This document shows, in pieces, positions 585 to 17,362 of a stretch of 32,765 bases of DNA. The notes below the pieces were generated by a model. It did no database searches, was not told the origin of the DNA, and saw nothing but the letters and a program-made list of their open reading frames with translations. Location: positions 1 to 32,765 of the forward strand of contig CAIZLD010000020.1 in assembly GCA_903933715.1 (NCBI GenBank), read 5' to 3'. The position numbers and the translations under genes were made by a program. Origin of the DNA: an uncultured Spartobacteria bacterium. GTDB lineage: Bacteria > Verrucomicrobiota > Verrucomicrobiia > Chthoniobacterales > Chthoniobacteraceae. The number at the start of each line of letters is the position of its first letter. Position 1 is the first letter of the stretch.

Positions 585-3500
585 TTATTGTGCCGAGCGG
601 CGGCGCAGGCGCTGGCCGAAGGCCAACATCCCAATGCCACCCACGACCATCGCCCAAGTGCTCGGCTCCGGAACTACGACAAACTCGCTGTTGTGGTCGA
701 TAACCGCCCACGCAGTGTGTTTGGTGGAATCATACCCGTAGTTGCCCAGTGTCAAATACGCGTCGGAGAAGGCCATATCGCCGTAGTTGCTTCCCGAGGT
801 CAACAGGCTGTTGCCCTCGACCGCGTTCACAAACTTCGTCATGCTCGTGCCGGGTTCAATGTAAGCGATGAAGACCGCGCCGCTGAAGTTCACATCATAG
901 CTCAACTGCAACACGAACAGGTCCGTCAGGTTCGGTGTTGCCATGTCGGGCTGGTGGATTCCGGTCAGTGTGAGGAAGTCGCTCAGAGCGTTGAAGCCAC
1001 CGGCTCCCGCCACCGATGAGGTGCTATCAAACGACATGGTGACCGTCGCGTCTCCGGCAGCCGTGCCACCCAGCAATTCTGCTGTGGTGCCCCGACCTGC
1101 CCCGCTCGTCAGGCCGTAGCCTTTATAACTTGCGGTGGCTGCGAGATTCGCGAATTTCTTTTCATCCCGGTTGTTGCTGACGCTGTCGGTAACTGTCGCA
1201 GTGACTCCGACTGAGCTGCTGTCGCCGGTGCCGCCGCTGATCGCCGCATCCGCCGCCGTTTTGTTGTCAAACGACAGGTTTGCCGTGGCCGTGTAGGTGC
1301 CGTTAAGCCTGTTGCTGTTCAACGTCGCGACTGCCGCCGAGCCGCTTGCCGCGACCAGGTTGCCGGTGCCGGCTGCCGCAAAGTTCCCCGCCTTAACGCC
1401 GGTCAAGGTGTTGCCGGTGATCTTGGCCGCCGCGGTGTAAGTGCCGCCGGTGTTGACCAGATTCAAGCCGTTCGAACTGAGGTTGGCGCGGTCGTACCCA
1501 ATACCGGTGACGTGGATCGTCTCCCCAGTAAGGCCTGTGTTGCCAAGCCCGCTGGTGCCGGTGCCATTCGAGGTGGCGCTCAATACCACGGTGCCGTTGT
1601 GGGTGCCCGAGGTGACGGAGCTAAGCGCGACGGTCAAGCTGGTGCTGTTGCCCGCCGCGATCGAGTTTGCTCCTCCGCTGAAGGTAGCTCCATCCGTTGC
1701 GGCTCCGCTCAGATCGAGTTTCTCGCTGTAGCTGTCACCCGTTGCTGCGGTATTACTTCCGCTCAGAACCCGGCTCTGCGCGTTGCCCGCCATGAAGTTG
1801 CCGAAGTTCACATCGCCCACCGTGTTGACCGAGGCCAATCTGTAGCCGGTGCCGTTGATTGTGACGGTCTGGCCAGTGATATTCGCCGCTCCGAGGCCGC
1901 TGCCGTTCACGGCATTGGATTGCAGAGACAGGACTGTCGTGGCCGACTGGACGCCGGCTCCGGCGCTTGCCCCTGCGCCCACCAGCAAGGTGCCGCTGTC
2001 GCTGCCGCCGCCCGCGATGCCGCCGGCGGTGCCGCTTGCGACGAAGTTATTCGTCGGCGCGCTAAACCCGTTGGTTTGCAGGGTTTCGGTGTAGGTCGCG
2101 TCTGCCGCGGCCGTGTTGGCGATGGTCAGCGCCGTTGTCTTGCCCACGCCAACATGGTAGTTCCCGATGTTGACCGTCTGGGTGGCTGCGGCTGCTGCGA
2201 GCCGGTAGTTATCCACGAAAACCCCCAATCCGGCGCCCGTGCCCGCCCCGCCATCCGCCACTGCGGCGCGATAACCGGCCACGTTACTTACGTCGGTAAA
2301 CGAGCCGCTCTTGGTTCCCGTATAAGTGAAGATTTTGTAGGAACCCACCCCAGCGCCGCCTGCATTAGTCAAAGCCAAGGTGCCGCCGAGCGCGAGGTTA
2401 CCAGTGACATCGGCACGGTCGGAGGAACCCGGAGTGTTGCGGGTGCCCGCGGCTGCCAGTTCAATTTCCGTAATACCAGCAAGAGACAGGCCATTGCCGA
2501 ACGCCACCGTGCCAATCGAGTTGCCGGGGGCCAAGGTGTTGCCCGCAGTGACACTCACGAAATTGCTGATCGCGCCGGTGCCGCTCAGTCTGCCGCCCGT
2601 TCCCGCGAATTCGACGGTCTTGGAAAGCGCCGTGCCGGAGTTGTATTTGAATTCACCCGCGCCGATGCTCACCTTGTTGGTGTTGTTGATCGAACCGCCG
2701 GACCCAATGGCCAGCACGCCTGCGTTCACGGTGGTTACCCCCGTGTAGCTGTTGCTGCCGCTCAGCGTAAATGTTCCGCCGCCAGCCTTGGTCAGGCCAA
2801 GCGCTCCGCCGCCGGTGCCATCGCGAAGCCAGCCCTTGAAGTCTCCAGTATAATTTTTGGAATTACCAACGGTGAGGGTGGCCGCCGTGGCATTCGCATT
2901 TTCAACCACCCCTCTGTAGGTGGCCCCGCTGTTGGTCAATTTGGAAACAGTGACGTTGGTTCCGTTCAGCTGCAAATAGCCGCCATCAGGGGTGGTGTAG
3001 CCAGCTCCGCCGTTATCAAAATCAACCGCATTTTCCGAACCTGCCGTTTTGTTTAGTGCTCCACCATTGGTTATTTTAATGGTAAAGTTCTTACCGATTT
3101 TAATGCCCCCGGTGAAAGTATTGTTTCCACCCAGTTCAATAATCGGAGTTGCATTGGTTGCGGCGGTACCAAACTCCATAGAGCGTGGGGTGCCATCCTC
3201 CCCAATAACCCCAGTAATCTTTGTATTACCGGTAAACGGCTGCGCACGAAAGCGAGTGTCGGCATAAAGCGTGATCTTCCCTTGGTGGGTTCCGCCACCA
3301 AAATAGATCGATCCTCGTGCGCCGCCAAACGTATAGATATTGACGTCGTTTAAATAGGTACCACCCCCATACTGCACAGTAGTCGAATCACCGGGATTGG
3401 CCGCAGACCCGATCGCAACCGTAGCTGACCCAGCGGCATAAGCATTAGCGATGCTTATTGTGTTAAGGTTGGTGGAGCCTGTACGGCTGGTCGTTAAGGT

Positions 3501-4058
3501 CAAAGTTCCAGTAAAGCTATTACTCCCCCCCAATGAAATGCCGGCAGAAGCTGATCCGGCCTGGTTGATAGTCACATTATTCCCGACTAAAACGGAGTTA
3601 ATCGTGCCCACACCGGCTACACCAGCAGTGTCAAATGTTGTGATTGTCGGGTTGGAGCCCCCGAGGTAAATCGTGCCGCTTGAGAGCGTTGTTGTGTATT
3701 TCGAGAAATTGATGCGATTCGCATAGACAGCACCCACTGTGACGGTGGTATTGGACGCAAGCACAAAATTGGCTTCGTTGCTGTAATTCGAGCTATTCCA
3801 TATTGTGTTCTGGGCAGTGCCCCATCTGGTCGTGTCTGTAAGCGTTCCATCCCAGTTTCCTGACCCGCCAGTGTTCCAGGTGTAGCTGGCGGCGTCGGCC
3901 GAGCCTGTCAAAAGCCCAAATGACAGGGCGATGGCGGCCAAAACCGGGGATTTTTGGCCGGGAAGAAGCTTGCGAATCAGACTCTCAGGAGACTGCGGGG
4001 GGATTTGTCGGGAAGATCGGGGTTGGTAATAGGGGTTAGTTTTCATAGAGGCAGCCAT
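585..4058 (-). CDS. PEP-CTERM autotransporter-type surface protein
   Basis: This 1157-residue protein is probably exported and handled at its C terminus by an exosortase-like system. The start ATG at 4058 is chosen because it is soon followed by a basic stretch and a signal peptide (SPVLAAIALSFGLLTGSADAA); the frame stays open to 4241, but that extension does not look like a signal sequence. The mature part is rich in Gly, Ser, Thr, Asn and Ala and has autotransporter-associated beta-strand repeats (for example GTFTLSGSNSYTGVTTVNAG), then repeated segments of about 100 residues resembling choice-of-anchor domains. The C terminus is a clear PEP-CTERM signal: VPEPSTW, a hydrophobic helix, then RLRRRS. 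No beta-barrel translocator follows, so it is not a classical autotransporter. No exosortase gene is in the window. The ligand or role is unknown; adhesion or extracellular matrix are guesses. Confidence 0.85.
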   Translation of the reverse strand: MAASMKTNPYYQPRSSRQIPPQSPESLIRKLLPGQKSPVLAAIALSFGLLTGSADAASYTWNTGGSGNWDGTLTDTTRWGTAQNTIWNSSNYSNEANFVLASNTTVTVGAVYANRINFSKYTTTLSSGTIYLGGSNPTITTFDTAGVAGVGTINSVLVGNNVTINQAGSASAGISLGGSNSFTGTLTLTTSRTGSTNLNTISIANAYAAGSATVAIGSAANPGDSTTVQYGGGTYLNDVNIYTFGGARGSIYFGGGTHQGKITLYADTRFRAQPFTGNTKITGVIGEDGTPRSMEFGTAATNATPIIELGGNNTFTGGIKIGKNFTIKITNGGALNKTAGSENAVDFDNGGAGYTTPDGGYLQLNGTNVTVSKLTNSGATYRGVVENANATAATLTVGNSKNYTGDFKGWLRDGTGGGALGLTKAGGGTFTLSGSNSYTGVTTVNAGVLAIGSGGSINNTNKVSIGAGEFKYNSGTALSKTVEFAGTGGRLSGTGAISNFVSVTAGNTLAPGNSIGTVAFGNGLSLAGITEIELAAAGTRNTPGSSDRADVTGNLALGGTLALTNAGGAGVGSYKIFTYTGTKSGSFTDVSNVAGYRAAVADGGAGTGAGLGVFVDNYRLAAAAATQTVNIGNYHVGVGKTTALTIANTAAADATYTETLQTNGFSAPTNNFVASGTAGGIAGGGSDSGTLLVGAGASAGAGVQSATTVLSLQSNAVNGSGLGAANITGQTVTINGTGYRLASVNTVGDVNFGNFMAGNAQSRVLSGSNTAATGDSYSEKLDLSGAATDGATFSGGANSIAAGNSTSLTVALSSVTSGTHNGTVVLSATSNGTGTSGLGNTGLTGETIHVTGIGYDRANLSSNGLNLVNTGGTYTAAAKITGNTLTGVKAGNFAAAGTGNLVAASGSAAVATLNSNRLNGTYTATANLSFDNKTAADAAISGGTGDSSSVGVTATVTDSVSNNRDEKKFANLAATASYKGYGLTSGAGRGTTAELLGGTAAGDATVTMSFDSTSSVAGAGGFNALSDFLTLTGIHQPDMATPNLTDLFVLQLSYDVNFSGAVFIAYIEPGTSMTKFVNAVEGNSLLTSGSNYGDMAFSDAYLTLGNYGYDSTKHTAWAVIDHNSEFVVVPEPSTWAMVVGGIGMLAFGQRLRRRSAQ

Positions 4059-4627
4059 AATACTTTTTCCCGACCTTGATGTAAGCTTTATTAATTGCGA
4101 AAGGGATTCAGAAATATGCGTTATTGTTTCAGCGGGGTCTCCGTGCTTTCCTGAGAAGAGTAGAAGGCAATAAATCAAAAAAGTCGAGGAGTTTCCAGGC
4201 CTAAGGACACACTGAATAAAGAACGATGGAGCAGAATGCACGTCAGTTTTGGCGGATGCCGCAGCCGCAAGCGGTGGCCTTGTCTGAAGACAGAAGACAA
4301 GGACGCCGAGCGCGGCAATGGCAGACGCTAAAAATCACGCGCAGGCTGCCCGTCGGGATTTGTTCAGCGTGTCCCTAAGCTGAATCGATATTCAGATCGA
4401 GCCAGACCCAAAGGGTTGCGGCGCGGTTTTGAATGTCGAAATTACCTGGCGCCTTGTATCTCGGTTTTTTGGAAAAAGAGAATCCGCAGATTGCGCAGAT
4501 GAACGCAGATTTATACGGAATAATCGGCGAAAATCTGCGCAATCTGCGGTTAACTCCCCTGTCTTGCCTGCGAAAAGCTTCATGATATACGTATACTAGC
4601 GCCTGTCCTGCGACTGTCGTGACGACA
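4059..4627. other. Intergenic region with a nonamer palindrome
   Basis: No gene is supported in this 569-base gap. It holds the 5' side of the PEP-CTERM gene, a small hairpin (4278-4302, 8-bp stem), a patch at 4378-4420 that resembles the reverse complement of about 14866-14910, and a full copy of the nonamer palindrome (4460-4602). No convincing -35/-10 pair for the PEP-CTERM gene was found. Confidence 0.6.
4460..4602 (+). repeat. Nonamer palindrome, copy A (full length)
   Basis: Perfect 17-bp arms (4484-4500 and 4533-4549) are built from the unit ATCTGCGNA. A conserved tail follows (about 4550-4602, including TAACTCCCCTGT and AAGCTTCATGATAT). Copy C at 19031-19174 matches over nearly the whole length. 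It lies just past the 3' end of the AraC gene that ends at 4628. Confidence 0.75.
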
Positions 4628-7056: not shown

Positions 7057-7917
7057 TCAGCGCCACTGGGAGGGAGCCACTCCGACCTTGCGCTTGAATA
7101 ATCGCGAAAAATAAAGCGAATCTGAAAAACCAACACGGGCGGCCACTTCCGCCACGGGAAGCGTGCCGAGCAATCGTTTGGCCTGATTGAGGCGGAAGTT
7201 AAGGAGATATTGATGCGGGGCGACTCCCGTCGCTTCCTGAAAAAGCCGACGAAAATTGCGATAACCTACGCCGAGTTGCTTTGCCAAAAGTTCGAAACTG
7301 ATCTCTTGGCCCCAATTTTTCCGAATATATCCTAAAGAAGCCTCCACGATCGGGGTTGCCTGTCGGGAATGCATAAAACGGTCCTGATGGAATTTCAGAA
7401 CCATAGCCAAAATTTCCATGACCACACCCGCCTGAATCTGGTTGGAAAAAGGGGATGCCACGCGGGCAATATCCAGGAGGCGGTCAAATCCCTCCGTGAC
7501 TTCGTTGCGTAAACCCACACGCAGCACCGGGGTGTCGACACAAAGCAGATCGTGCATGCACCAATGGTTGGCCAATTCGCCATTAAAGAGTACCCAGCGC
7601 GCCGTCCAACCGGTTTTGGGCGAGGGATAATAATCGTGCCGAATCCCTGGAAAAAGCGCCAGCACATCCCCCTCCTGGACCCGGCGCCACTTGGAATCAT
7701 GCCCTTTGTACGACCCGTGCCCGTCGGTGATATAAATCAGACAATAATCGCGCAAGACCCGCAAAGGGTGGTTGTGCGATGGCCTGGGTTGCTTAGGCTC
7801 CACCTGGCGGCCCACACCGGTGACATAAACTCCCCAAGTTCGTTCCCGGGCGGCAGGAATGTAATCGAAACGCTCTCTTATGGCCATTTTGTCCATATTT
7901 TTGGCCATTGTGTGCAT
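7057..7917 (-). CDS. AraC-family regulator of the methanol locus
   Basis: This 286-residue AraC-type regulator is divergent from the corrinoid operon that begins at 7989, 71 bp away, and is the obvious candidate to control it. The N-terminal half is a cupin-type sensor (about residues 30-130, including HNHPLRVLRDYCLIYITDG and a GDVLALFPGIRHDY strand). The C-terminal half (about 185-286) has two helix-turn-helix motifs, the second being EVAARVGFSDSLYFSRLFKR. Four in-frame ATGs lie within the first 11 codons (7917, 7908, 7896, 7887). The conserved part begins near RFDYIPAARERTWGVYVTG, so a start at 7887 is also possible. Methanol sensing by this family is not established; the effector could be a sugar or a pathway metabolite. 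Confidence 0.85.
   Translation of the reverse strand: MHTMAKNMDKMAIRERFDYIPAARERTWGVYVTGVGRQVEPKQPRPSHNHPLRVLRDYCLIYITDGHGSYKGHDSKWRRVQEGDVLALFPGIRHDYYPSPKTGWTARWVLFNGELANHWCMHDLLCVDTPVLRVGLRNEVTEGFDRLLDIARVASPFSNQIQAGVVMEILAMVLKFHQDRFMHSRQATPIVEASLGYIRKNWGQEISFELLAKQLGVGYRNFRRLFQEATGVAPHQYLLNFRLNQAKRLLGTLPVAEVAARVGFSDSLYFSRLFKRKVGVAPSQWR
7881..7912. promoter_or_regulatory. Candidate AraC operator: direct repeats 21 bp apart
   Basis: TGGCCATTTTG (7881-7891) and TGGCCATTGTG (7902-7912) match at 10 of 11 positions with a 21-bp offset, two helical turns. That is the spacing of direct half-sites bound by AraC-type proteins. A weaker GTCCAT lies between them. The repeats overlap the first codons of the regulator, or its leader if translation starts at 7887. 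Confidence 0.25.
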
Positions 7918-7988: not shown

Positions 7989-8621
7989 ATGAGCGAACTC
8001 CAAGAACTGACCGCCGCCGTTGAAAAAGGAAACCGCAAAGAAGCCATCAGGCTCACCAATCTTCTCATCGAAGCGGGAATGCCCCCGATGGATATCGTCG
8101 AGACGGGCCTCGTTCCCGCGATGTCGAACGTTGGCGAAAAATTCAAAAACAACGAAATCTTTGTTCCTGAAATGCTTATTGCCGCCCGGGCAATGAAAGA
8201 AGCCATGGCGATCATCCAGCCGCTTTTGACGGCCGCCGGGATCAAGCCGAAATACACCGCGATCATCGGAACAGTTCAAGGGGATTTGCACGATATCGGC
8301 AAGAACCTCGTAGCAATGATGCTCAAAGGGGCCAATTTCAACGTGATCGATATTGGCACTAATGTGCCGCCGGAGAAATTCGTCGCCGCAGCCAAGGAGC
8401 ATGAGGCCCAGCTCGTAGGGCTCTCCGCGCTTTTGACCACCACCATGCCGGCCATGAAGACCACGGTGGAAGCGTTCCGCACCGCCGGGTTGAATACCGT
8501 CAAAATCATGATCGGCGGAGCGCCGATCACCCAGGAGTTCGCCGACGAAATCGGAGCGGACGGCTACAGCCCCGATGCCGCCAGCGCGGTCGATCTGGCG
8601 AACAAAATGGTCGCGGCCTAA
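7989..8621 (+). CDS. mtaC: Corrinoid protein, MtaC-like
   Basis: This 210-residue protein carries the corrinoid cofactor that accepts and donates the methyl group. Residues 1-85 form the helical cap domain. Residues 88-210 form the Rossmann-like B12-binding domain with the signature GDLHDIGKN (98-106), in which His101 is the expected lower axial cobalt ligand, followed by SALLTTTM (146-153) and IGGAP (175-179). Length and layout match MtaC/MtbC/MttC proteins. The next gene is a methanol methyltransferase, so the MtaC role is the best fit; the protein alone does not reveal its substrate partner. It is the first gene of the plus-strand series and is divergent from an AraC regulator. There is no Shine-Dalgarno sequence before the ATG. 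Confidence 0.9.
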   Translation: MSELQELTAAVEKGNRKEAIRLTNLLIEAGMPPMDIVETGLVPAMSNVGEKFKNNEIFVPEMLIAARAMKEAMAIIQPLLTAAGIKPKYTAIIGTVQGDLHDIGKNLVAMMLKGANFNVIDIGTNVPPEKFVAAAKEHEAQLVGLSALLTTTMPAMKTTVEAFRTAGLNTVKIMIGGAPITQEFADEIGADGYSPDAASAVDLANKMVAA

Positions 8622-8704
8622 GCCGTTCGACCTTTCACTCCCCACCCAAACCCCCCACCCATAACCAAAGCGGCCGGAGCTTCTCCAGCCGATACGCTAC
8701 TCCT

Positions 8705-10084
8705 ATGCCCAGATACCAAAAACTCGCCATCGTTGATCCAGCGGAATTGCGGTTCGGCATCGCTCCCAACCCGCTGACTACCCGCCATGGAATGACCATC
8801 GGGGGCGGAATCGTCTACCCCGAACTGAACTTTACCCTTCCTCCGATGTTTGTAGACAAAACAACCATCTCGAAGGCTCAAGATCATTATCGACAAATCA
8901 TCGGCGGCGCCTTGCAGCGCGCGGTGGAATTGGAAGCCCCCGGCCTGGTCGTGGAATTCGAAACACTGCCGCCCATGACGGAAAATCCGGAATGGGGGAT
9001 TGATATCGCCAAGATTCTGCTCGAAGCGATGGAAAAGGCCAACACGCAACATGGGCTCAAAAGCGTGCTGCGTATGACCCCCAATGATACCCGGGAAATG
9101 GAACGCCCCCCGGCGATGCGCAGTGGGATGCTTTGGGAAAAGATGCTTGAAACCTTCGAGGGAAGCGCCGCGGCAGGCGCAGAACTGCTCAGCATCGAGT
9201 CGGTCGGCGGCAAGGAAGTCCATGATGACGCGCTCCTGACGGGCGACATTGCTTCGGTGATTTTTGGCCTGTGCGTGATGGGAACGCGCGATATGCGCTT
9301 TTTGTGGAGCCAGCTCGACAAGATCGCCAAGCAGTACGGCGTTCATTGCGCGGGAGACACGGCTTGCGGCTTCGGCAACACGGCCATGGTTCTGGCGGAA
9401 CAGAAAATGATCCCGCGTGTATTCGCAGCCGTTGTGCGGGCGATCAGCGCGGTGCGGACCCTGGTGGGCTATGAATGCGGATGCGTCGGCCCGGGCAAAG
9501 ATTGCGGGTATGAGAACATCATCATGAAAGCCATCACCGGTTTCCCGATGGCCATGGAAGGAAAGACTTCCGCCTGCGCACACCTCAGCCCGCTCGGGAA
9601 CATTGCAGCGGCTGCGTGCGATACCTGGAGCAACGAGTCAGTCCAAAACATCAAACTTCTCGGCGGCATGGCCCCGACGGTCTACCTAGAGCAACTGGTG
9701 TACGACTGCCGGATCATGAACCAGGCTCTCGGCGACGGGCGCGATGCGGCCCTGCTCTATCGCAAATGGTTGGTTAACTCCGACGCCGGTCTCGATCCGC
9801 AGGCATTCGTCCTCACCCCGGAAAGTTCGATCGCCATCGCCCAGTCAATCGTCCAAGCGCCGGACGACTACACTGCCGGCAAACAAGCGGCGCTCACCGC
9901 CATCGAACTGCTGCGGCAAGGCCATCGCAACGGCCTGGTCAGAATCAGTGAAATGGAACTCCCCTGGCTCGATACCATGCGGGAAGCGGTGGAAGACCTT
10001 CCCGCCGACGAAGGGCAGTTTATCTGCCAGATGATGGGCACCCTGGAAACCGAAAAATTCTGCGCGAAAGATTACGAACTTTAA
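8705..10084 (+). CDS. mtaB: Methanol:corrinoid methyltransferase MtaB
   Basis: MtaB breaks the C-O bond of methanol and moves the methyl group to the Co(I) corrinoid of MtaC. This 459-residue protein has the family's usual length (about 460) and many of its characteristic segments: LLSIESVGGKEV (161-172), HCAGDTAC (214-221), GPGKDCGYEN (262-271), MEGKTSACAH and DTWSNESV. In Methanosarcina barkeri MtaB zinc is held by one Glu and two Cys (Glu164, Cys220, Cys269 as I recall). Glu165, Cys221 and Cys267 here lie in the matching motifs, so the active site looks intact. It follows mtaC after 83 bp and precedes the MtaA-like gene by 4 bp. The family assignment is firm; activity on methanol rather than another small alcohol is inferred from the family. 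Confidence 0.93.
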   Translation: MPRYQKLAIVDPAELRFGIAPNPLTTRHGMTIGGGIVYPELNFTLPPMFVDKTTISKAQDHYRQIIGGALQRAVELEAPGLVVEFETLPPMTENPEWGIDIAKILLEAMEKANTQHGLKSVLRMTPNDTREMERPPAMRSGMLWEKMLETFEGSAAAGAELLSIESVGGKEVHDDALLTGDIASVIFGLCVMGTRDMRFLWSQLDKIAKQYGVHCAGDTACGFGNTAMVLAEQKMIPRVFAAVVRAISAVRTLVGYECGCVGPGKDCGYENIIMKAITGFPMAMEGKTSACAHLSPLGNIAAAACDTWSNESVQNIKLLGGMAPTVYLEQLVYDCRIMNQALGDGRDAALLYRKWLVNSDAGLDPQAFVLTPESSIAIAQSIVQAPDDYTAGKQAALTAIELLRQGHRNGLVRISEMELPWLDTMREAVEDLPADEGQFICQMMGTLETEKFCAKDYEL

Positions 10085-10088
10085 AAAT

Positions 10089-11114
10089 ATGGATCGCTCT
10101 TATTATCTCGAACTGGCCGAATCCGGCCTGAAAATGCCCATCGGCACCCACCTCGTCCTCCACGAACACGCCGACGCCGAAGCGATCTTGCTGGAAGGAG
10201 AACGCCTGGGCTCCGTTGTGGAGGAAGCGGCCCGCACCTTCGGCGCTCCCATGGCCATCCCGGTGATGGACTTGAAACTCGAAAAAGAAGCGTTGCTGAG
10301 TTCTCATGGCGTGCCGGAGGCCGAAATCGACCAATTCCATTTCAAGGAAGCCCCGGAGCAGGATTGGGCTGTTTCCGCAACGCCCCGGATGAAAGCCACA
10401 TGCGAGGCGATCAGCCATGTGGCAAAAAACGGGGAATTTCTCCCTGTCGGCATGGGCATCGGGCCGTTTTCGCTGATGACCAAACTGGTCTCGGACCCGA
10501 TCACCCCCGTCTTCCTCGCCGGAGCGGGAAGCACCGCCGAGGAGGACGAGGAAGTGCATCTCGTCGAGCGCACGCTGGCGCTGGCCATGAACGCCATATT
10601 GCCTTATCTCGAGGCCCAGATTAAAGCCGGAGCCAAAGCGATCATCCTCTGCGAACCGGCGGCGAACATGGTCTACTTTTCGCCCAACCAGCTCGCGGAA
10701 AGCTATGAAATCTTTGACCGCTACGTCATGGAGCCCAACCGTCGGATCAAGGCGCTGCTCGACGCGCACAACGTGGATATGATCTTCCACGACTGCGGCG
10801 AACTGCAAAATGAAATGGTGAGCCGCTTTGCCACGCTTAACCCGGCTATGATGAGCCTTGGCAGTTCCCGGATGCTCTGGGAAGACGCGGCGCTCGTCCC
10901 CAACGACATCGTGCTTTACGGCAACCTGCCGACGAAGAAATTCTACTCCGATTCGCTCGTCAGCCAGGAAGATGTGCGGCAGCTTTCGGCCGAACTGACC
11001 CGGCGCATGCGTGCGACCGGCCATCCGTTCATCCTGGGCAGCGAGTGCGACGTGCTCAGCGTGCCCGGCGCGGAGGCAACCATCAAGGCAAAGGTCGAGG
11101 CCTTTCTGAAATAA
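10089..11114 (+). CDS. URO-D-fold methylcorrinoid methyltransferase, MtaA-like
   Basis: This 341-residue protein has the URO-D fold and the zinc motif of MtaA/MtbA-type methyltransferases: His234-x-Cys236 (FHDCGEL) and a later Cys320 (GSECD). In methanogens MtaA passes the methyl group from MtaC to coenzyme M. In acetogens such as Acetobacterium woodii a related protein passes it to tetrahydrofolate. No coenzyme M genes are seen here, so tetrahydrofolate or another thiol is more likely, but the sequence does not settle the acceptor. The zinc motif would activate a thiol directly, which leaves room for a thiol acceptor. The gene starts 4 bases after mtaB and is surely cotranscribed with it. 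A perfect 12-bp hairpin follows the stop codon. Confidence 0.85.
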   Translation: MDRSYYLELAESGLKMPIGTHLVLHEHADAEAILLEGERLGSVVEEAARTFGAPMAIPVMDLKLEKEALLSSHGVPEAEIDQFHFKEAPEQDWAVSATPRMKATCEAISHVAKNGEFLPVGMGIGPFSLMTKLVSDPITPVFLAGAGSTAEEDEEVHLVERTLALAMNAILPYLEAQIKAGAKAIILCEPAANMVYFSPNQLAESYEIFDRYVMEPNRRIKALLDAHNVDMIFHDCGELQNEMVSRFATLNPAMMSLGSSRMLWEDAALVPNDIVLYGNLPTKKFYSDSLVSQEDVRQLSAELTRRMRATGHPFILGSECDVLSVPGAEATIKAKVEAFLK

Positions 11115-11145
11115 GCCGCACCTTCCGGCAACGCAAATTGCAATG

Positions 11146-11177
11146 AACGCCCTCGCCATCTCCGGCGAGGGCGTTTA
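11146..11177 (+). terminator. Perfect hairpin between the MtaA-like and homocysteine methyltransferase genes
   Basis: AACGCCCTCGCC (11146-11157) pairs perfectly with 11164-11175 around a 6-base loop. Only a weak T-rich stretch (TATACTTTT) follows. It could be a partial terminator that lowers expression of the distal genes, or an mRNA processing or stability structure. It ends about 15 bases before the next start codon. Confidence 0.5.
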
Positions 11178-11189
11178 TACTTTTCGCCT

Positions 11190-12074
11190 ATGACCGATCT
11201 TCTGGTTGCATTAAATACGCGTCCGCTTCTTTGTGATGGGGCGATGGGAACCCAGCTCATGGATTGCGGCCTCGGCAGCGGTGATTGCGGAATGCTTTGG
11301 AACACCCTCCATTCCAATCGGGTCCGCGGCATTCATCAATTTTACGCCGAGGCGGGCTGCAATCTCCTGACGACCAACACCTTTGGGGGAACCTCCTATG
11401 CGCTGGATCGCCACGGTCTCGCCGACCATGTCCTGAAACTCAACCGTGCCGGGGCACAGGTCGCGAGAGAGGCTATCGGAAAATCCGGCTGGGTGCTTGG
11501 CGACGTGGGGCCGTTTGGGGATTTTATGGAACCCCTGGGCCAAACGTCCGCAGACGAACTCTGCGCCATGTTCCGCGAACAGATTGCCGCGCTTGCGGAA
11601 GGCGGCGTGGATGCCATTCTCATTGAAACGATGAGCGATCCTGCCGAAATGGAAGTCGCCATCGCCGCTTCAAAACAAGCCGCCAGCCTGCCCATTATTG
11701 GAACCTACGCTTTCCAGAAATCGGGGGAAACGGGCTTTCGCACCATGATGGGCGCCCCCGTGAAGGAAGCCATCGAACGGGCCATTGCCGCCGGAGCGGA
11801 TATCGTGGGAACCAATTGCGGTGTGGAGCTTTCCTTTGGCGACTACCTGGAGCTTGCACGCCAAATCGTGAGCGCAGCGGGGAAAACTCCGGTCATCTTG
11901 CAGCCAAACGCCGGCTCGCCTCAACTCGTCAACGGAGAAATCATTTACAACGCAACTCCAGAGGAAATGGCCGCGCTGACTGCAGATTTGCTGGACGCGG
12001 GAGTCCGCATCGTGGGAGGATGCTGCGGAACCAACCCTGGCCACCTTGCGGCAATGAGTCGCAGGATTGGTTGA
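11190..12074 (+). CDS. Homocysteine S-methyltransferase family protein
   Basis: This 294-residue protein matches the homocysteine-binding, zinc-dependent barrel domain found at the N terminus of methionine synthase MetH and in BHMT/MmuM enzymes. The start DGAMGTQL (16-23), the TNTFGG motif (62-67) and the three zinc cysteines are present: Cys210 in GTNCG, and Cys278-Cys279 in GGCCGTNP. It has no folate- or B12-binding domain of its own, so its methyl donor must be another protein or molecule. Next to MtaB and MtaC the natural idea is that methyl-MtaC is the donor and methionine the product. Alternatively it is an S-methylmethionine or betaine-type enzyme. A hairpin separates it from the upstream gene; the DUF1638 gene follows after 10 bases. 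Confidence 0.85.
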   Translation: MTDLLVALNTRPLLCDGAMGTQLMDCGLGSGDCGMLWNTLHSNRVRGIHQFYAEAGCNLLTTNTFGGTSYALDRHGLADHVLKLNRAGAQVAREAIGKSGWVLGDVGPFGDFMEPLGQTSADELCAMFREQIAALAEGGVDAILIETMSDPAEMEVAIAASKQAASLPIIGTYAFQKSGETGFRTMMGAPVKEAIERAIAAGADIVGTNCGVELSFGDYLELARQIVSAAGKTPVILQPNAGSPQLVNGEIIYNATPEEMAALTADLLDAGVRIVGGCCGTNPGHLAAMSRRIG

Positions 12075-12084
12075 TCGCCCCCCA

Positions 12085-12840
12085 ATGAAAATTGCCGTTC
12101 TGACTTGCGATGTCCTGACCGATGAAGTGAAGCACTTTTGCCGCGACTTGCCCGAGGTGGCGCGGGTCGAGGTGATCGAACAAGGGTTGCACAATACCCC
12201 CGGCCTTTTACGCGAACGGCTCCAGGCGGCCATTTTGGCAACGGAAGAAGACCCGGACATCGATGCCATCGTTCTAGTCTACGGCCTTTGCAGCCGGGGC
12301 ATCGAGGGCATCAGCGCGCGTCGTTGCCGGATCGTTATCGCGCGGGCGCATGACTGCATCACGCTGCTCCTCGGCTCCAAAGAACGCTATGCCGAATATG
12401 TGGCGCGCCATCCCGGCACCTACTGGTACAGCCCGGGCTGGAACCGATGCCATCTCCCGCCCGGGAAAGAACGCGTTGAAAAACTCAAACGCGAATATGT
12501 CGAAAAATATGGCGAGGAGAACGCCGATTACCTGATGGAAATGGAGCAGGATTGGCTGCGCGCCTACAATCGCGCCACGTATGTCGGTTTCGACGCCGCG
12601 GCCGCTCAAGCCGATGCCGAATATACAAAGCAATGCGCCGACTGGCTCGGTTGGAGCTTCGATTCCCAGCAGGGGGATGCGCAATTGCTGCGCGATCTCC
12701 TTTCCGGGCACTGGGACTCGGGCCGTTTTCTTGTATTGGAACCGGGAGAAACCGTCCGGTTCACCGTAGACGATTCCATTCTCGCCGCCATGCCATGCGG
12801 CGGAAATTGTTCAGTCCAACCCGGTGCGGCACAGCAATGA
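12085..12840 (+). CDS. DUF1638 protein, companion of corrinoid methyltransferases
   Basis: This 251-residue protein resembles the DUF1638 family, which has no established biochemical role and is often encoded beside corrinoid methyltransferases. Recognisable features are the N-terminal MKIAVLTCDVL strand, VYGLCSRGIEG (65-75), ARAHDCITLLLGSKERY (86-102) and a Cys-rich end (AMPCGGNC). Several Cys and His residues (Cys8, Cys69, His89, Cys91, Cys122, Cys238, Cys242) could bind metal or a cofactor; this is inference. The ATG at 12085 is chosen over an upstream TTG at 12067. The stop codon overlaps the start of the reductive activator in ATGA, so the two are probably translationally coupled and may work together, for example in corrinoid loading or repair. 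Confidence 0.8.
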   Translation: MKIAVLTCDVLTDEVKHFCRDLPEVARVEVIEQGLHNTPGLLRERLQAAILATEEDPDIDAIVLVYGLCSRGIEGISARRCRIVIARAHDCITLLLGSKERYAEYVARHPGTYWYSPGWNRCHLPPGKERVEKLKREYVEKYGEENADYLMEMEQDWLRAYNRATYVGFDAAAAQADAEYTKQCADWLGWSFDSQQGDAQLLRDLLSGHWDSGRFLVLEPGETVRFTVDDSILAAMPCGGNCSVQPGAAQQ

Positions 12841-14459
12841 ACACCACCCTGCATCTCCAGGCTCTGCACCGCAACCAAACCATCCATCCCGATCCGGCGA
12901 CCGATCCCCGGGGTCTCGCCGATCTGCTTGCGTTCCACGGGCTGCCGCTCAATACCCGTTGCGCCCAGAATGGGTGTTGCGAGAGTTGCACCGTGCAACT
13001 CGACCGCGGAAGCCTCAAGGAAACGATCAGCGGCAACCCGATCACCCACCCCGGGCCGCTGCTCGCCTGCCGGGCGGAGTGGATTCCGGGAACAGAAATC
13101 GCCCTCACCATTCCAAGCCGCTCCCTGCTCGCCCGTGATGCCGTTGCCGCTGATGATTTTCAGATCAGCGTTCCGGTCGGGAACTCACCTCTCTTTTCCG
13201 GCGAGTTTGGACTGGCTGTGGATATCGGAACGACCACCGTTGTCGTACTCCTCGCCGAACTAGCCACGGGCCGAATCCTGACTCGCGCCAGCGGCTTCAA
13301 CCAACAAGTCGGCCTGGGGGACGACGTTCTGGCCCGCATCGGCCTGTGCTATAAAAACCCCGGAATGGTGATTCGGCTTCAGCGCGCCATCTGCGAGGAG
13401 ACCCTTGCTCCGTTGGCATTGGAGGCGTGCGCCAAAGCATCCATCCCCCCGGAACGCATCAGCGGAATGGCTGTTGCCGGGAACACGGCGATGCTGCATC
13501 TCTTGTTCGGCGAGGACCCTTCCCCCCTCGGCGTGGTTCCATTCACACCCCGCTTTCTCGACCATCGAATCCGCGGCGCACATTCCCTCGGCTTTTGCGA
13601 TTTCCCTGACATGCCCGTTCACGCTTTGCCGGGTCTCGCGGCCTATGTCGGCGCGGACATCGCCGCCGGTCTCTACGCCACGGGACTTCACGATAGTCCC
13701 GGCCCGGCGCTCTTCGTGGATGTCGGCACCAACGGCGAGATTGCCCTGCTCAAAGAAGGCCGTCTGTATGCCTGCGCCACCGCAGCCGGACCGGCCTTCG
13801 AGGGGTGCAGCCTTTCATGCGGAATGCGTGCGACCGAAGGGGCCGTCGAAGGGATCGCGCTCAGCCTCGACCAAAACGGGCAAATCGCGATTCACCTCCA
13901 GACGATTGGCCATCTTCCACCGGAACAATCGCCCGGTTTTTGCGGATCGGCTTATATCGATTTCCTGGCCCAAGCCCGCGCCGCCGGGATCCTCATGGAA
14001 AACGGGCGCTTCGATCCCAAACACGTTGCGGCAAATCCCGCTCTGTTCCAGGACGAGGAAAACGGCCGCGCCATGCGGCTGACCGAGGGAGAACCCCCCC
14101 TTCGCATTACCGAATCCGACCTCGCCATTCTTCTTCAATCCAAAGCCGCCATCGCCGCGGGAATCCAAACATTGCTGGAGCGCGAACGGCTTGCCGGGGT
14201 TCCACGGCTTTATCTCGCGGGCGGGTTTGGCATGCACCTTGATGTTCCCCACGCGATCGCATGCGGCTTGCTTCCAGGGTTTCTGCCTTCCCAAGTCGAA
14301 GTGGTCGGCAACACCTCCCTTGGGGGAGCCTATCTTGCCATGCTCGACCGGTCCGTCCTGAAGGAGCTAACGCGGCTCCAGACACGCACCACCATCGTCG
14401 AGCTCAATCTCGACCCGGAGTTTGAGAACCGCTATATCGATAACCTGACGCTCGCGTAA
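12837..14459 (+). CDS. Reductive activator of corrinoid proteins (RACE type)
   Basis: RACE proteins use ATP and a [2Fe-2S] cluster to reduce inactive Co(II) corrinoid to Co(I). This 540-residue protein has a short plant-type ferredoxin domain at residues 1-95 with Cys42, Cys48, Cys51 and Cys78 (C-x5-C-x2-C...C) and an extra Cys47. A short linker leads to the ASKHA ATPase region (about 124-510) with LAVDIGTTTVV (126-136), VAGNTAML (213-220), DVGTNGE (295-301), AGGFG (461-465) and GNTSLGGA (491-498). The ATG at 12837 overlaps the previous stop; the open frame upstream of it is a shadow of the DUF1638 gene. It is the last gene of the locus and supplies the reactivation step that any MtaBC system needs. 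The family assignment is strong; the exact partner, MtaC at 7989, is inferred from context. Confidence 0.9.
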   Translation: MNTTLHLQALHRNQTIHPDPATDPRGLADLLAFHGLPLNTRCAQNGCCESCTVQLDRGSLKETISGNPITHPGPLLACRAEWIPGTEIALTIPSRSLLARDAVAADDFQISVPVGNSPLFSGEFGLAVDIGTTTVVVLLAELATGRILTRASGFNQQVGLGDDVLARIGLCYKNPGMVIRLQRAICEETLAPLALEACAKASIPPERISGMAVAGNTAMLHLLFGEDPSPLGVVPFTPRFLDHRIRGAHSLGFCDFPDMPVHALPGLAAYVGADIAAGLYATGLHDSPGPALFVDVGTNGEIALLKEGRLYACATAAGPAFEGCSLSCGMRATEGAVEGIALSLDQNGQIAIHLQTIGHLPPEQSPGFCGSAYIDFLAQARAAGILMENGRFDPKHVAANPALFQDEENGRAMRLTEGEPPLRITESDLAILLQSKAAIAAGIQTLLERERLAGVPRLYLAGGFGMHLDVPHAIACGLLPGFLPSQVEVVGNTSLGGAYLAMLDRSVLKELTRLQTRTTIVELNLDPEFENRYIDNLTLA

Positions 14460-14905: not shown

Positions 14906-16342
14906 CTAGCAGACTCTTGCGATGTCGAGATTGAGCAGTTTTCCGAGCTTCTGGAGCCGATCGCCAATATGGCCGACCCCGACGGCGCAATGGTGAGCCG
15001 GGCCGTGTGCATTCCACCCTTCGACGAAAGCTCGAGCGCCAATCGGGAACCGATAACGGCTATTGGTGTTGCCGATTTCCAAAATCGGCCCGGGGACTGA
15101 TTCGCCTTCCGCAACGAGCAGGGAAAGCTTCCCATTTTTTTGCTCAACCACGGAGAGCAAAGTGACGGGGCCATGCTTTACCATCATTTCCACGGAGAGA
15201 CCTTTCCCGACTTTTCCATGGTATACCTTCAAGGGGCGCACCTTGGTTTTTCCGGCGGCAATGGCGATATGCCCGGGGCCGTCATGCCCCATAAGAACCA
15301 CATCGTCTTTAAAATCCATCGCGTAATATTCGGTGAACGACCCTCCGACGCCGAAGCTGTCGAGGATTTTCATGGCCTGGACGTTTTTGACTTCGTATTC
15401 ACCAGCCACCGGCACACCTCTGGCGGTGAGCAGAGAGTTTCCAAGGATCACGGAACTCATGACATCCTCCAACTCCGCGATACCGCTGCCCATGTGGTAA
15501 TAGGCCAGAGAGCCGAGCTGTTTGTTTTCCACCAGTTGATCCAGCGCGAGGGAGGTGCGCGCGGCCCGCAGCAATTCCTCTTCCGAGCAGTCGGGCTGGA
15601 CCTCAAACACTTCCCGGAATTTCGCAACCCGTTCGATCGCCAATTTTTCCGGGATATCCCGGCGCAACGCGGCGAGTTCCTCGACCTCGACGATTTCCAT
15701 GTGGCCGCCGAAGGTGGCGACCTGCAAGGTGATGTCGCTGGCGATATCCAGCATGCCATTATAATAATGGCCCATGAGTCCCATTCGGTTATGGGCCATG
15801 ATCGAGGCGACCCGGGCGGCTTCGATCCACTGGTCGATCTCTTTCCACACCACAGCATCCCCCTCGAGTATCCCTGTGACTTGGTGGAAATCCACCCCTG
15901 CGCGATTAAACACGTTGGCGATTTCAGGCACCGGGCAGGATGAACAATAGGACAGCCATTCCCCCGTCATTTGAGTTCTGTCGCCGAGGGCATTGAATCG
16001 GGCGTAGTCGATGGCTGCCTCGGGCTGGAGATTCAATACAATCACCGGCACCTTGGCCCGGCGCACCACCGGAAGCACCGTGGAAGAAAGCGCGTAAGTG
16101 GTGACATACAAGAAAATGATGTCCACATCCTCTCTCCGGAACTGGTGCCCGGCATCCATGGCTTTTTCCGGTGAGTCGATCAGGCCAAGATTGACGACTT
16201 CCACCCCGGGCCGTTCAAGTTTCGAGGCGACGGTCTGGAGATAGCCCTCCAGACGTTTTTTTAATCCCTCAAACTGGGACCAGTAGGTGTCCAAGCCGAT
16301 TCCAAACAAACCAACACGCAGGGCAGAGGGGGATGTTTTCAT
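14906..16342 (-). CDS. L-arabinose/L-fucose isomerase-family protein
   Basis: This 478-residue protein resembles the L-arabinose isomerase branch of the fucose/arabinose isomerase superfamily, which interconvert aldose and ketose sugars using Mn2+. The N-terminal Rossmann-like part begins RVGLFGIGLDTYW. Likely metal ligands are Glu315 (VAGEYEV), Glu338 (GSFTEYYAMDF), His353 (LMGHDGPGH) and His450 or His451 (GPAHHCAVG). These places correspond to Glu306, Glu333, His350 and His450 in E. coli AraA. The sequence is distant from E. coli AraA, so the substrate may be another sugar. It is divergent from an AraC regulator (ATG at 16342, 193 bp away). No kinase or epimerase for an arabinose pathway is next to it. 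Its last codons run close to the repeat region downstream. Confidence 0.8.
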   Translation of the reverse strand: MKTSPSALRVGLFGIGLDTYWSQFEGLKKRLEGYLQTVASKLERPGVEVVNLGLIDSPEKAMDAGHQFRREDVDIIFLYVTTYALSSTVLPVVRRAKVPVIVLNLQPEAAIDYARFNALGDRTQMTGEWLSYCSSCPVPEIANVFNRAGVDFHQVTGILEGDAVVWKEIDQWIEAARVASIMAHNRMGLMGHYYNGMLDIASDITLQVATFGGHMEIVEVEELAALRRDIPEKLAIERVAKFREVFEVQPDCSEEELLRAARTSLALDQLVENKQLGSLAYYHMGSGIAELEDVMSSVILGNSLLTARGVPVAGEYEVKNVQAMKILDSFGVGGSFTEYYAMDFKDDVVLMGHDGPGHIAIAAGKTKVRPLKVYHGKVGKGLSVEMMVKHGPVTLLSVVEQKNGKLSLLVAEGESVPGPILEIGNTNSRYRFPIGARAFVEGWNAHGPAHHCAVGVGHIGDRLQKLGKLLNLDIARVC

Positions 16343-16534: not shown

Positions 16535-17362
16535 TTGGGTTGGACTTTCCATCTCTCCGCCATCGGGCATACCCGGATCAAACCAGGGGAGCTTTACCCC
16601 CCGCGCCACCATCCCGAAGACCGCGCGTTTGTGTGGAACGAAGGAAGGGTGATCAACGCCCTGCAACTGGTTTTTATATCCCAGGGCGAAGGAGACGTGG
16701 AGTGGCGTTCGCGGGTCGAGCGGGTGAAGGCGGGGAATGTGGTCGTGCTGTTGCCGGGGGAATGGCATCGGTATCGGCCGAGAATAAAAACGGGCTGGAC
16801 CGAGGATTGGTTTGAGTTGCGGGGAGCCACGGTGGATGCGTGGATCAAGGCGGGTGTGGTCAGCAGGGAAATCGGCCAGGCAGATTCCCCGGGCGACTTC
16901 GCCAACACGTTCGCCCAAATGCATGAACTTTGCGCGAGCCAACTGCCGCATGCCCGGGCCGTTGCAACCGGGCTCTCGATGAGCTTGTTGGCAAGGGTGA
17001 CAACCCCTGGCAGCGCCGAGGGAAAGGAAATCCTTGGGTTATTGCATGCTTCAAAACCGTTATTGGCCGAAGGTAAAAGGGTTCGGGAAGTAGCCCGCCA
17101 ACTGGGCCTTAGCTATATCACTTTTTATCGGCAGTTCAAAATGGCTGTGGGAATCACACCCCAGGAATATGCCAGCCAACTTCGCCTGGCCCGCGCGGAA
17201 AATTTTCTCCTTGGAACCAGCCTTCCCATCAAGATCATTGCCGACCGCCTTGGATATAATACCCCGTCTCATTTCTCCAATGAGTTCAAAAAAGCGCGGA
17301 AGATGACTCCGGAGATTTGGAGGCGCTCTCGAAGGCAAAACGATACGCCCACGGTTGCTTAA
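16535..17362 (+). CDS. AraC-family regulator of the isomerase gene
   Basis: This AraC-type regulator has a cupin-like sensor (GHTRIKPGELYPPRHHPEDR, then QLVFISQGEGDVEW and GNVVVLLPGEWHRY) and a C-terminal double helix-turn-helix (VREVARQLGLSYITFYRQF and IIADRLGYNTPSHFSNEF). It is divergent from the isomerase gene and probably controls it. The start shown is TTG at 16535, giving 275 residues, but the frame stays open back to 16448. The upstream translation (IKDYFEYFPSGSRELGW) looks like the usual N terminus of this subfamily. No ATG, GTG or TTG lies there in frame, only ATA (16478) and ATC (16493). An ATG at 16461 is in another frame. Either a rare start codon is used, the start was lost to a one-base indel or sequencing error, or translation really begins at the TTG. 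Confidence 0.8.
   Translation: MGWTFHLSAIGHTRIKPGELYPPRHHPEDRAFVWNEGRVINALQLVFISQGEGDVEWRSRVERVKAGNVVVLLPGEWHRYRPRIKTGWTEDWFELRGATVDAWIKAGVVSREIGQADSPGDFANTFAQMHELCASQLPHARAVATGLSMSLLARVTTPGSAEGKEILGLLHASKPLLAEGKRVREVARQLGLSYITFYRQFKMAVGITPQEYASQLRLARAENFLLGTSLPIKIIADRLGYNTPSHFSNEFKKARKMTPEIWRRSRRQNDTPTVA

Follow-up and report, generated by a model that had tools for sequence, protein, structure and literature searches.

The operon at 7989-14459

The window analyzed here is a stretch of 32,765 nucleotides from an uncultured Spartobacteria bacterium (contig CAIZLD010000020.1), in which six plus-strand genes at 7989-14459 form one operon. They encode, in order, a corrinoid protein, a homolog of the methanol:corrinoid methyltransferase MtaB, a zinc methyltransferase with the uroporphyrinogen decarboxylase (URO-D) fold, a homocysteine methyltransferase, a DUF1638 protein and a RACo/RamA-type activase. 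An original prediction made from the sequence had listed these six genes; Pfam finds all of them in place, and the residues it named (MtaC His101; MtaB Glu165, Cys221 and Cys267; URO-D protein His234, Cys236 and Cys320) lie at the positions given. Two gene starts were corrected. The DUF1638 gene most likely begins at ATG 12085 (12067 is a TTG), and the activase gene begins at ATG 12837, the start at 12552 in the open reading frame list being overlong.

An AraC-family regulator (7057-7917, minus strand; AraC_binding and HTH_18 domains by Pfam) is divergent from the operon, with 71 bp between it and mtaC. A counterpart (66% identity) occupies the same place in contig L030 of a Spartobacteria metagenome-assembled genome (MAG). 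The entire order AraC-mtaC-mtaB-URO-D-homocysteine methyltransferase-DUF1638-activase is identical in L030, with 65-84% amino-acid identity, and the ratio of nonsynonymous to synonymous substitution rates (dN/dS) between window and L030 is ~0.08-0.19 for all six operon genes, i.e., purifying selection. The operon is therefore real and maintained. A promoter scan did no better than on shuffled sequence.

The corrinoid protein (7989-8621) is free-standing and of the MtaC/MtgC type, with domains PF02607 and PF02310 and the base-off His101 in a DLHDIGKN motif. Its best solved relative (207 bits) is 1y80 from Moorella, which we take to be the 25-kDa corrinoid protein reported by Das et al. 2007 as induced by methanol. 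The homocysteine S-methyltransferase (11190-12074) is also free-standing; it matches PF02574 with 219 bits and aligns with the homocysteine module of MetH (1q7m), the zinc cysteines Cys210, Cys278 and Cys279 being present (alignment A3). The activase (12837-14459) has domains PF17651 and PF14574, includes an ASKHA domain, and scores 266 bits against 3zyy; ahead of the RACo domains it has a C-x5-C-x2-C motif, and it is by this cysteine motif alone that its N-terminal [2Fe-2S] ferredoxin-like part is recognized. The DUF1638 protein (12085-12840; PF07796, 136 bits) is predicted to be an accessory factor in corrinoid reactivation (see PMC5764234). In a 17-sequence alignment (A4) its residues Cys8, Cys69, Cys91, His36 and His89 are invariant, a set that looks like a metal or cluster site. 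As a guess, we asked whether it is akin to the double-cubane HgdB-type proteins, but its predicted fold (pLDDT 91) has no clear match in the PDB (best Z 7.3).

MtaB, its relatives and its candidate substrate

MtaB (8705-10084) covers the full-length PF12176 domain (residues 3-458; 553 bits against a cut-off of 25, E 5e-166). It scores 320 bits against the solved M. barkeri MtaB (2i2x_A), in which a Glu and two Cys in the same motifs align with the zinc ligands Glu165, Cys221 and Cys267; these three are invariant across 12 MtaB proteins of the phylum. At least 586 MtaB-related loci came up in GTDB species genomes, and the best 80 are mostly from Verrucomicrobiota, with others from Planctomycetota, Armatimonadota, Hydrogenedentes, Bacteroidota and Bacillota. 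To call such systems not well described in this lineage, as had been done, was thus an overstatement, the more so as a paper of 2008 had already mentioned, in passing, that Opitutaceae TAV2 has a close homolog of MtaB (PMC2474590). Within the phylum MtaB is patchy, being present in 14 of 387 genomes and in none of ten other genomes sampled from the host's order.

As the original prediction had proposed, the position of MtaB was checked by phylogeny. In maximum-likelihood trees the window MtaB groups with that of L030 (support 100/99) and other Verrucomicrobiota, in a group dominated by Verrucomicrobiota, Planctomycetota and Armatimonadota. A separate, neighboring clade (95/87) comprises the MtaBs of Moorella, Clostridium luticellarii and Bacteroidota and contains methanol-using acetogens; in Moorella thermoacetica, mtaA1B1C1 is strongly methanol-induced (PMC13391211). 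Because of this placement, methanol is a reasonable candidate substrate for the window MtaB, as judged from sequence.

Might MtaB use another methyl donor instead, such as a methoxylated compound, with methionine or tetrahydrofolate (THF) as the sink? We know of no assayed member of its clade, and its score of 428 falls below the cut-off (720) of the NCBI equivalog model for methanogen MtaB. Moreover, many related loci hold several URO-D-type methyltransferases, members of a superfamily that includes O-demethylases (PMC10418091). That said, the zinc ligands and their surrounding motifs are conserved with M. barkeri MtaB and the neighboring clade holds acetogen MtaBs, and we regard a different donor as rather unlikely.

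The MtaB of Methanosarcina lies far outside these groups in the trees, as does an atypical one from a verrucomicrobium, L019 (G143:C3:434500-454200; MtaB at ~9157-11583, minus strand). This Methanosarcina-like MtaB, from a verrucomicrobial genome of the same class as the host, scores 672 bits against PF12176, is 38% identical to the window MtaB, is distant from all other bacterial MtaBs, and is accompanied by a corrinoid protein, RACo and DUF1638. At six other loci (L035, L036, L041, L057, L060 and L076) neither a corrinoid protein nor an activase can be recognized in the DNA fetched on either side of a same-clade MtaB near 10001; its partners may be elsewhere in the genome. A CobW-type metallochaperone GTPase recurs beside methyltransferase clusters (L026 12531-13454 and ten other loci). 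Seven loci (L026, L045, L049, L051, L053, L055 and L099) have in common, within the DNA fetched around MtaB, a 765-aa protein that fuses fatty-acid-desaturase, Rieske and NAD-binding reductase domains (L026 2338-4635).

The URO-D-fold protein and the host genome

The URO-D-fold protein (10089-11114) scores 60 bits against PF01208 and had been described as MtaA-like. As far as the fold and the His-x-Cys...Cys zinc motif (His234, Cys236, Cys320) go, this is borne out; the motif is invariant in alignments of nine operon-type members and in 20 proteins that include ones from MtaB-lacking genomes. Membership of the MtaA family, by contrast, had to be dropped. No curated MtaA/SCMT model reaches its cut-off (MtaA_Meth 21 bits against 400; mtaA_cmuA 21 bits against 235), neither sequence nor profile searches returned a convincing match to MtaA, and the structure model (pLDDT 92) fails to separate M. 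mazei MtaA (4ay7, Z 28.4, ~16% identity in the structural alignment, where family membership by sequence would call for >25% to an SCMT) from uroporphyrinogen decarboxylase (Z 28.3), a tie.

Away from MtaB, members of this subfamily (A2) adjoin a corrinoid protein in 5 of 19 loci scanned, sometimes with DUF1638 or a further URO-D gene, and otherwise stand alone. Most likely the protein is a second donor-side methyltransferase that charges the same corrinoid protein from some other donor; or else it would be an alternative outlet, acting on the acceptor side towards THF or a thiol. In one MAG (Bin_23R; L038 11385-21371) about eight URO-D-type methyltransferase genes stand in a row straight after mtaC-mtaB.

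An outlet to THF could also be the core of a methylotrophic oxidation, in which MtaB and the corrinoid protein would accept a methyl group from methanol and the URO-D protein, replacing a pterin-type MtaA, would move it to THF. MetF and folate enzymes would then carry it to formate or CO2, giving energy with oxygen or another acceptor, and the homocysteine methyltransferase would be a side branch. The URO-D gene does lie directly after mtaB, M. mazei MtaA is its tied best fold match, and the fold of MetE, which binds methyl-THF, is related; the host genome has MetF and heme-copper oxidase; and a corrinoid system of Ruegeria supplies both THF and homocysteine (PMC12478193). However, the URO-D subfamily is missing in 8 of 14 MtaB genomes and MtaB in 17 of 23 URO-D genomes, formate-THF ligase (Fhs) is absent from the host genome, and the zinc motif would be a better fit for activating a thiol or a donor than for a pterin site. 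We consider this oxidation unlikely, if worth keeping in mind.

The host genome (G000) is 2.80 Mb in size and 97% complete. Its InfB is 87% identical to that of the L030 Spartobacteria MAG, 70% to that of a Terrimicrobiaceae MAG and 59% to that of a Methylacidiphilales MAG; the host is therefore a verrucomicrobium of the Terrimicrobiaceae/Spartobacteria neighborhood, in agreement with the verrucomicrobial origin first suggested.

The original prediction took the locus to indicate anaerobic one-carbon use and proposed a genome search for genes of that metabolism. In the host genome MetF and CobS are present, as is a complete MetH with its activation domain, whereas acetyl-CoA synthase (ACS; PF03598) and Fhs (PF01268) are both absent from the 97%-complete genome. 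Nor does the host genome have an acetogen-type pterin-binding MtaA (PF00809, ~270 aa). Its pterin-binding proteins are three, namely MetH and two of FolP type; a hidden MtaA was thereby rejected, the third protein being FolP-type. Heme-copper oxidase has two matches. Since ACS, Fhs and acetogen-type MtaA are lacking and heme-copper oxidases are present, the anaerobic claim does not hold up well, and the host genome does not suggest an obligately anaerobic one-carbon energy metabolism.

The picture is similar in the ten other verrucomicrobial MtaB genomes tested, with ACS in none, Fhs in one and heme-copper oxidase in nine (the exception is G029); two acetogens lack heme-copper oxidase. The pterin matches in G392 and one of those in G390 are FolP-type, while the other G390 match, within a long reading frame where a contig stops, probably represents part of a MetH. 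Of 92 loci, only three have an acetogen-type MtaA close to mtaB, those of Moorella, a member of the Thermosediminibacteraceae and C. luticellarii. Thus although MtaB and the corrinoid protein are related to methanol-induced acetogen proteins, an acetogenic or other anaerobic energy-yielding use of methanol in the style of Moorella or Acetobacterium is very improbable: ACS occurs in none and Fhs in one of the 11 verrucomicrobial MtaB genomes tested, and for this host the missing ACS and Fhs led us to reject acetogenesis, and that reading is largely refuted.

Elsewhere in the window, a minus-strand gene at 14906-16342 encodes a protein that belongs, distantly, to the fold group of fucose/arabinose isomerases and matches sulfoquinovose isomerase weakly; it is accompanied by a second AraC regulator at 16535-17362. 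The large product of another minus-strand gene (585-4241) contains autotransporter-type repeats as well as a choice-of-anchor D domain, and carries a PEP-CTERM sorting signal at its C terminus.

Methionine synthesis and comparison with known systems

Co-occurrence was scored in the 387 genomes of the phylum, the homocysteine methyltransferase subfamily being defined by alignment A3 at E under 1e-90, a cut set after viewing the list so as to part free-standing enzymes from MetH-like frames. The subfamily occurs in 86 genomes, MtaB in 14 and the URO-D subfamily in 23. Homocysteine methyltransferase is found in 11 of the 14 MtaB genomes (expected 3.1, p 8e-6) and 20 of the 23 URO-D genomes (expected 5.1, p 1e-11), including 7/8 with MtaB only and 16/17 with URO-D only; MtaB and the URO-D subfamily are together in six genomes (expected 0.8). 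This is the pattern to be expected if two inlets, in part independent of each other, fed one common homocysteine outlet. The p-values are a rough guide only, because the cut was chosen after seeing the list and relatedness was ignored.

We judge it somewhat more probable than otherwise that the operon is a B12-dependent methyl-transfer hub supplying methionine synthesis from methanol. The cluster probably is more like an amino-acid-making pathway of known parts than an energy pathway of methanogens or acetogens. Going by its family and intact ligands, MtaB would hold methanol on its zinc and hand the methyl group on to the corrinoid protein's Co(I). The free-standing homocysteine methyltransferase, from its module identity, its place in the operon and its co-occurrence, would accept the methyl group from the corrinoid protein to make methionine. 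Genetics of the Phaeobacter homologs suggests that the RACo-type activase and DUF1638 would re-reduce corrinoid that has been oxidized to Co(II). The URO-D-fold protein would most likely add a second inlet, or else an alternative outlet. The whole would work as a split methionine synthase with a methanol module in place of the one for methyl-THF.

Several points count against methionine supply from methanol. The host has complete MetH as well as MetF, so that it does not depend on the operon for methionine. In the co-occurrence tests related genomes count as independent, and 3 of the 14 MtaB genomes lack the homocysteine methyltransferase subfamily. This gene is mostly not beside MtaB, being within the fetched DNA at 13 of 92 MtaB loci, and methanol remains a candidate donor. 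Finally, the free-standing homocysteine methyltransferase could act alone on betaine or dimethylsulfoniopropionate (DMSP), by analogy with Phaeobacter Bmt, which does so in vitro (PMC12366255).

The methanol-to-methionine reading can be extended beyond this host. It is conceivable, though we put it slightly short of an even chance, that a methanol:homocysteine system, a B12 methionine synthase supplied with methyl groups by methanol via MtaB instead of by methyl-THF, operates in oxygen-respiring or facultative Verrucomicrobiota and related phyla, passing methanol carbon to methionine and S-adenosylmethionine, with URO-D paralogs adding further methyl donors. When MtaB turns up in metagenomes it is often taken to mark methanol use by methanogens or acetogens; should MtaB loci outside acetogenesis serve chiefly methionine synthesis or aerobic oxidation, this marker would mislead for a large share of bacterial MtaB genes. 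Methanol would then also reach methionine directly, independently of folate. A modular view, with one corrinoid hub, one homocysteine outlet and exchangeable inlets, gives a testable role to many of the unassigned URO-D proteins in such loci.

How does the operon compare with systems already characterized? With Methanosarcina MtaABC (2i2x, 4ay7) it shares the MtaB family, the zinc ligands and the URO-D fold of the third enzyme, but the aligned identity between MtaA and the URO-D protein is only ~16%. To our knowledge, coenzyme M metabolism is not to be expected in the host bacterium. The MtaABC system of the acetogens Moorella, Acetobacterium and Eubacterium (PMC13391211) is similar in having MtaB adjacent to a related corrinoid protein; its MtaA, however, is a 30-kDa pterin-binding THF methyltransferase that the window host lacks, as it does the carbonyl branch of the Wood-Ljungdahl pathway.

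The likeness is of another kind to split methionine synthase. In Phaeobacter inhibens this enzyme is divided among a PF02574 homocysteine methyltransferase, a corrinoid protein and a pterin module, and also needs a RamA-like ferredoxin+DUF4445 protein and DUF1638, mutants in all five being rescued by methionine (PMC5764234). In Ruegeria, one corrinoid protein serves both glycine-betaine demethylation and methionine synthesis (PMC12478193). The original prediction listed the homocysteine methyltransferase and DUF1638 but missed this link to a system that genetics shows to need both (PMC5764234). Of the five kinds of part in the Phaeobacter synthase, the window operon has four, namely the corrinoid protein, PF02574, the RamA-like ferredoxin+ASKHA activase and DUF1638, which it likewise shares with the MtgBCDE system of Ruegeria pomeroyi. 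The operon has neither pterin-binding MtgD nor MtgB, and there is no free-standing pterin-binding methyl-THF module in it or in the rest of the host genome, which, unlike those systems, additionally has a full MetH. In the open-licence literature we found no account that links MtaB with the parts of a split methionine synthase; each part of the operon is already known, and it is their combination that looks new. With four of the five parts present, the pterin module missing, and MtaB and the URO-D-fold protein in its place, the simplest reading is a methanol-fed methionine synthase.

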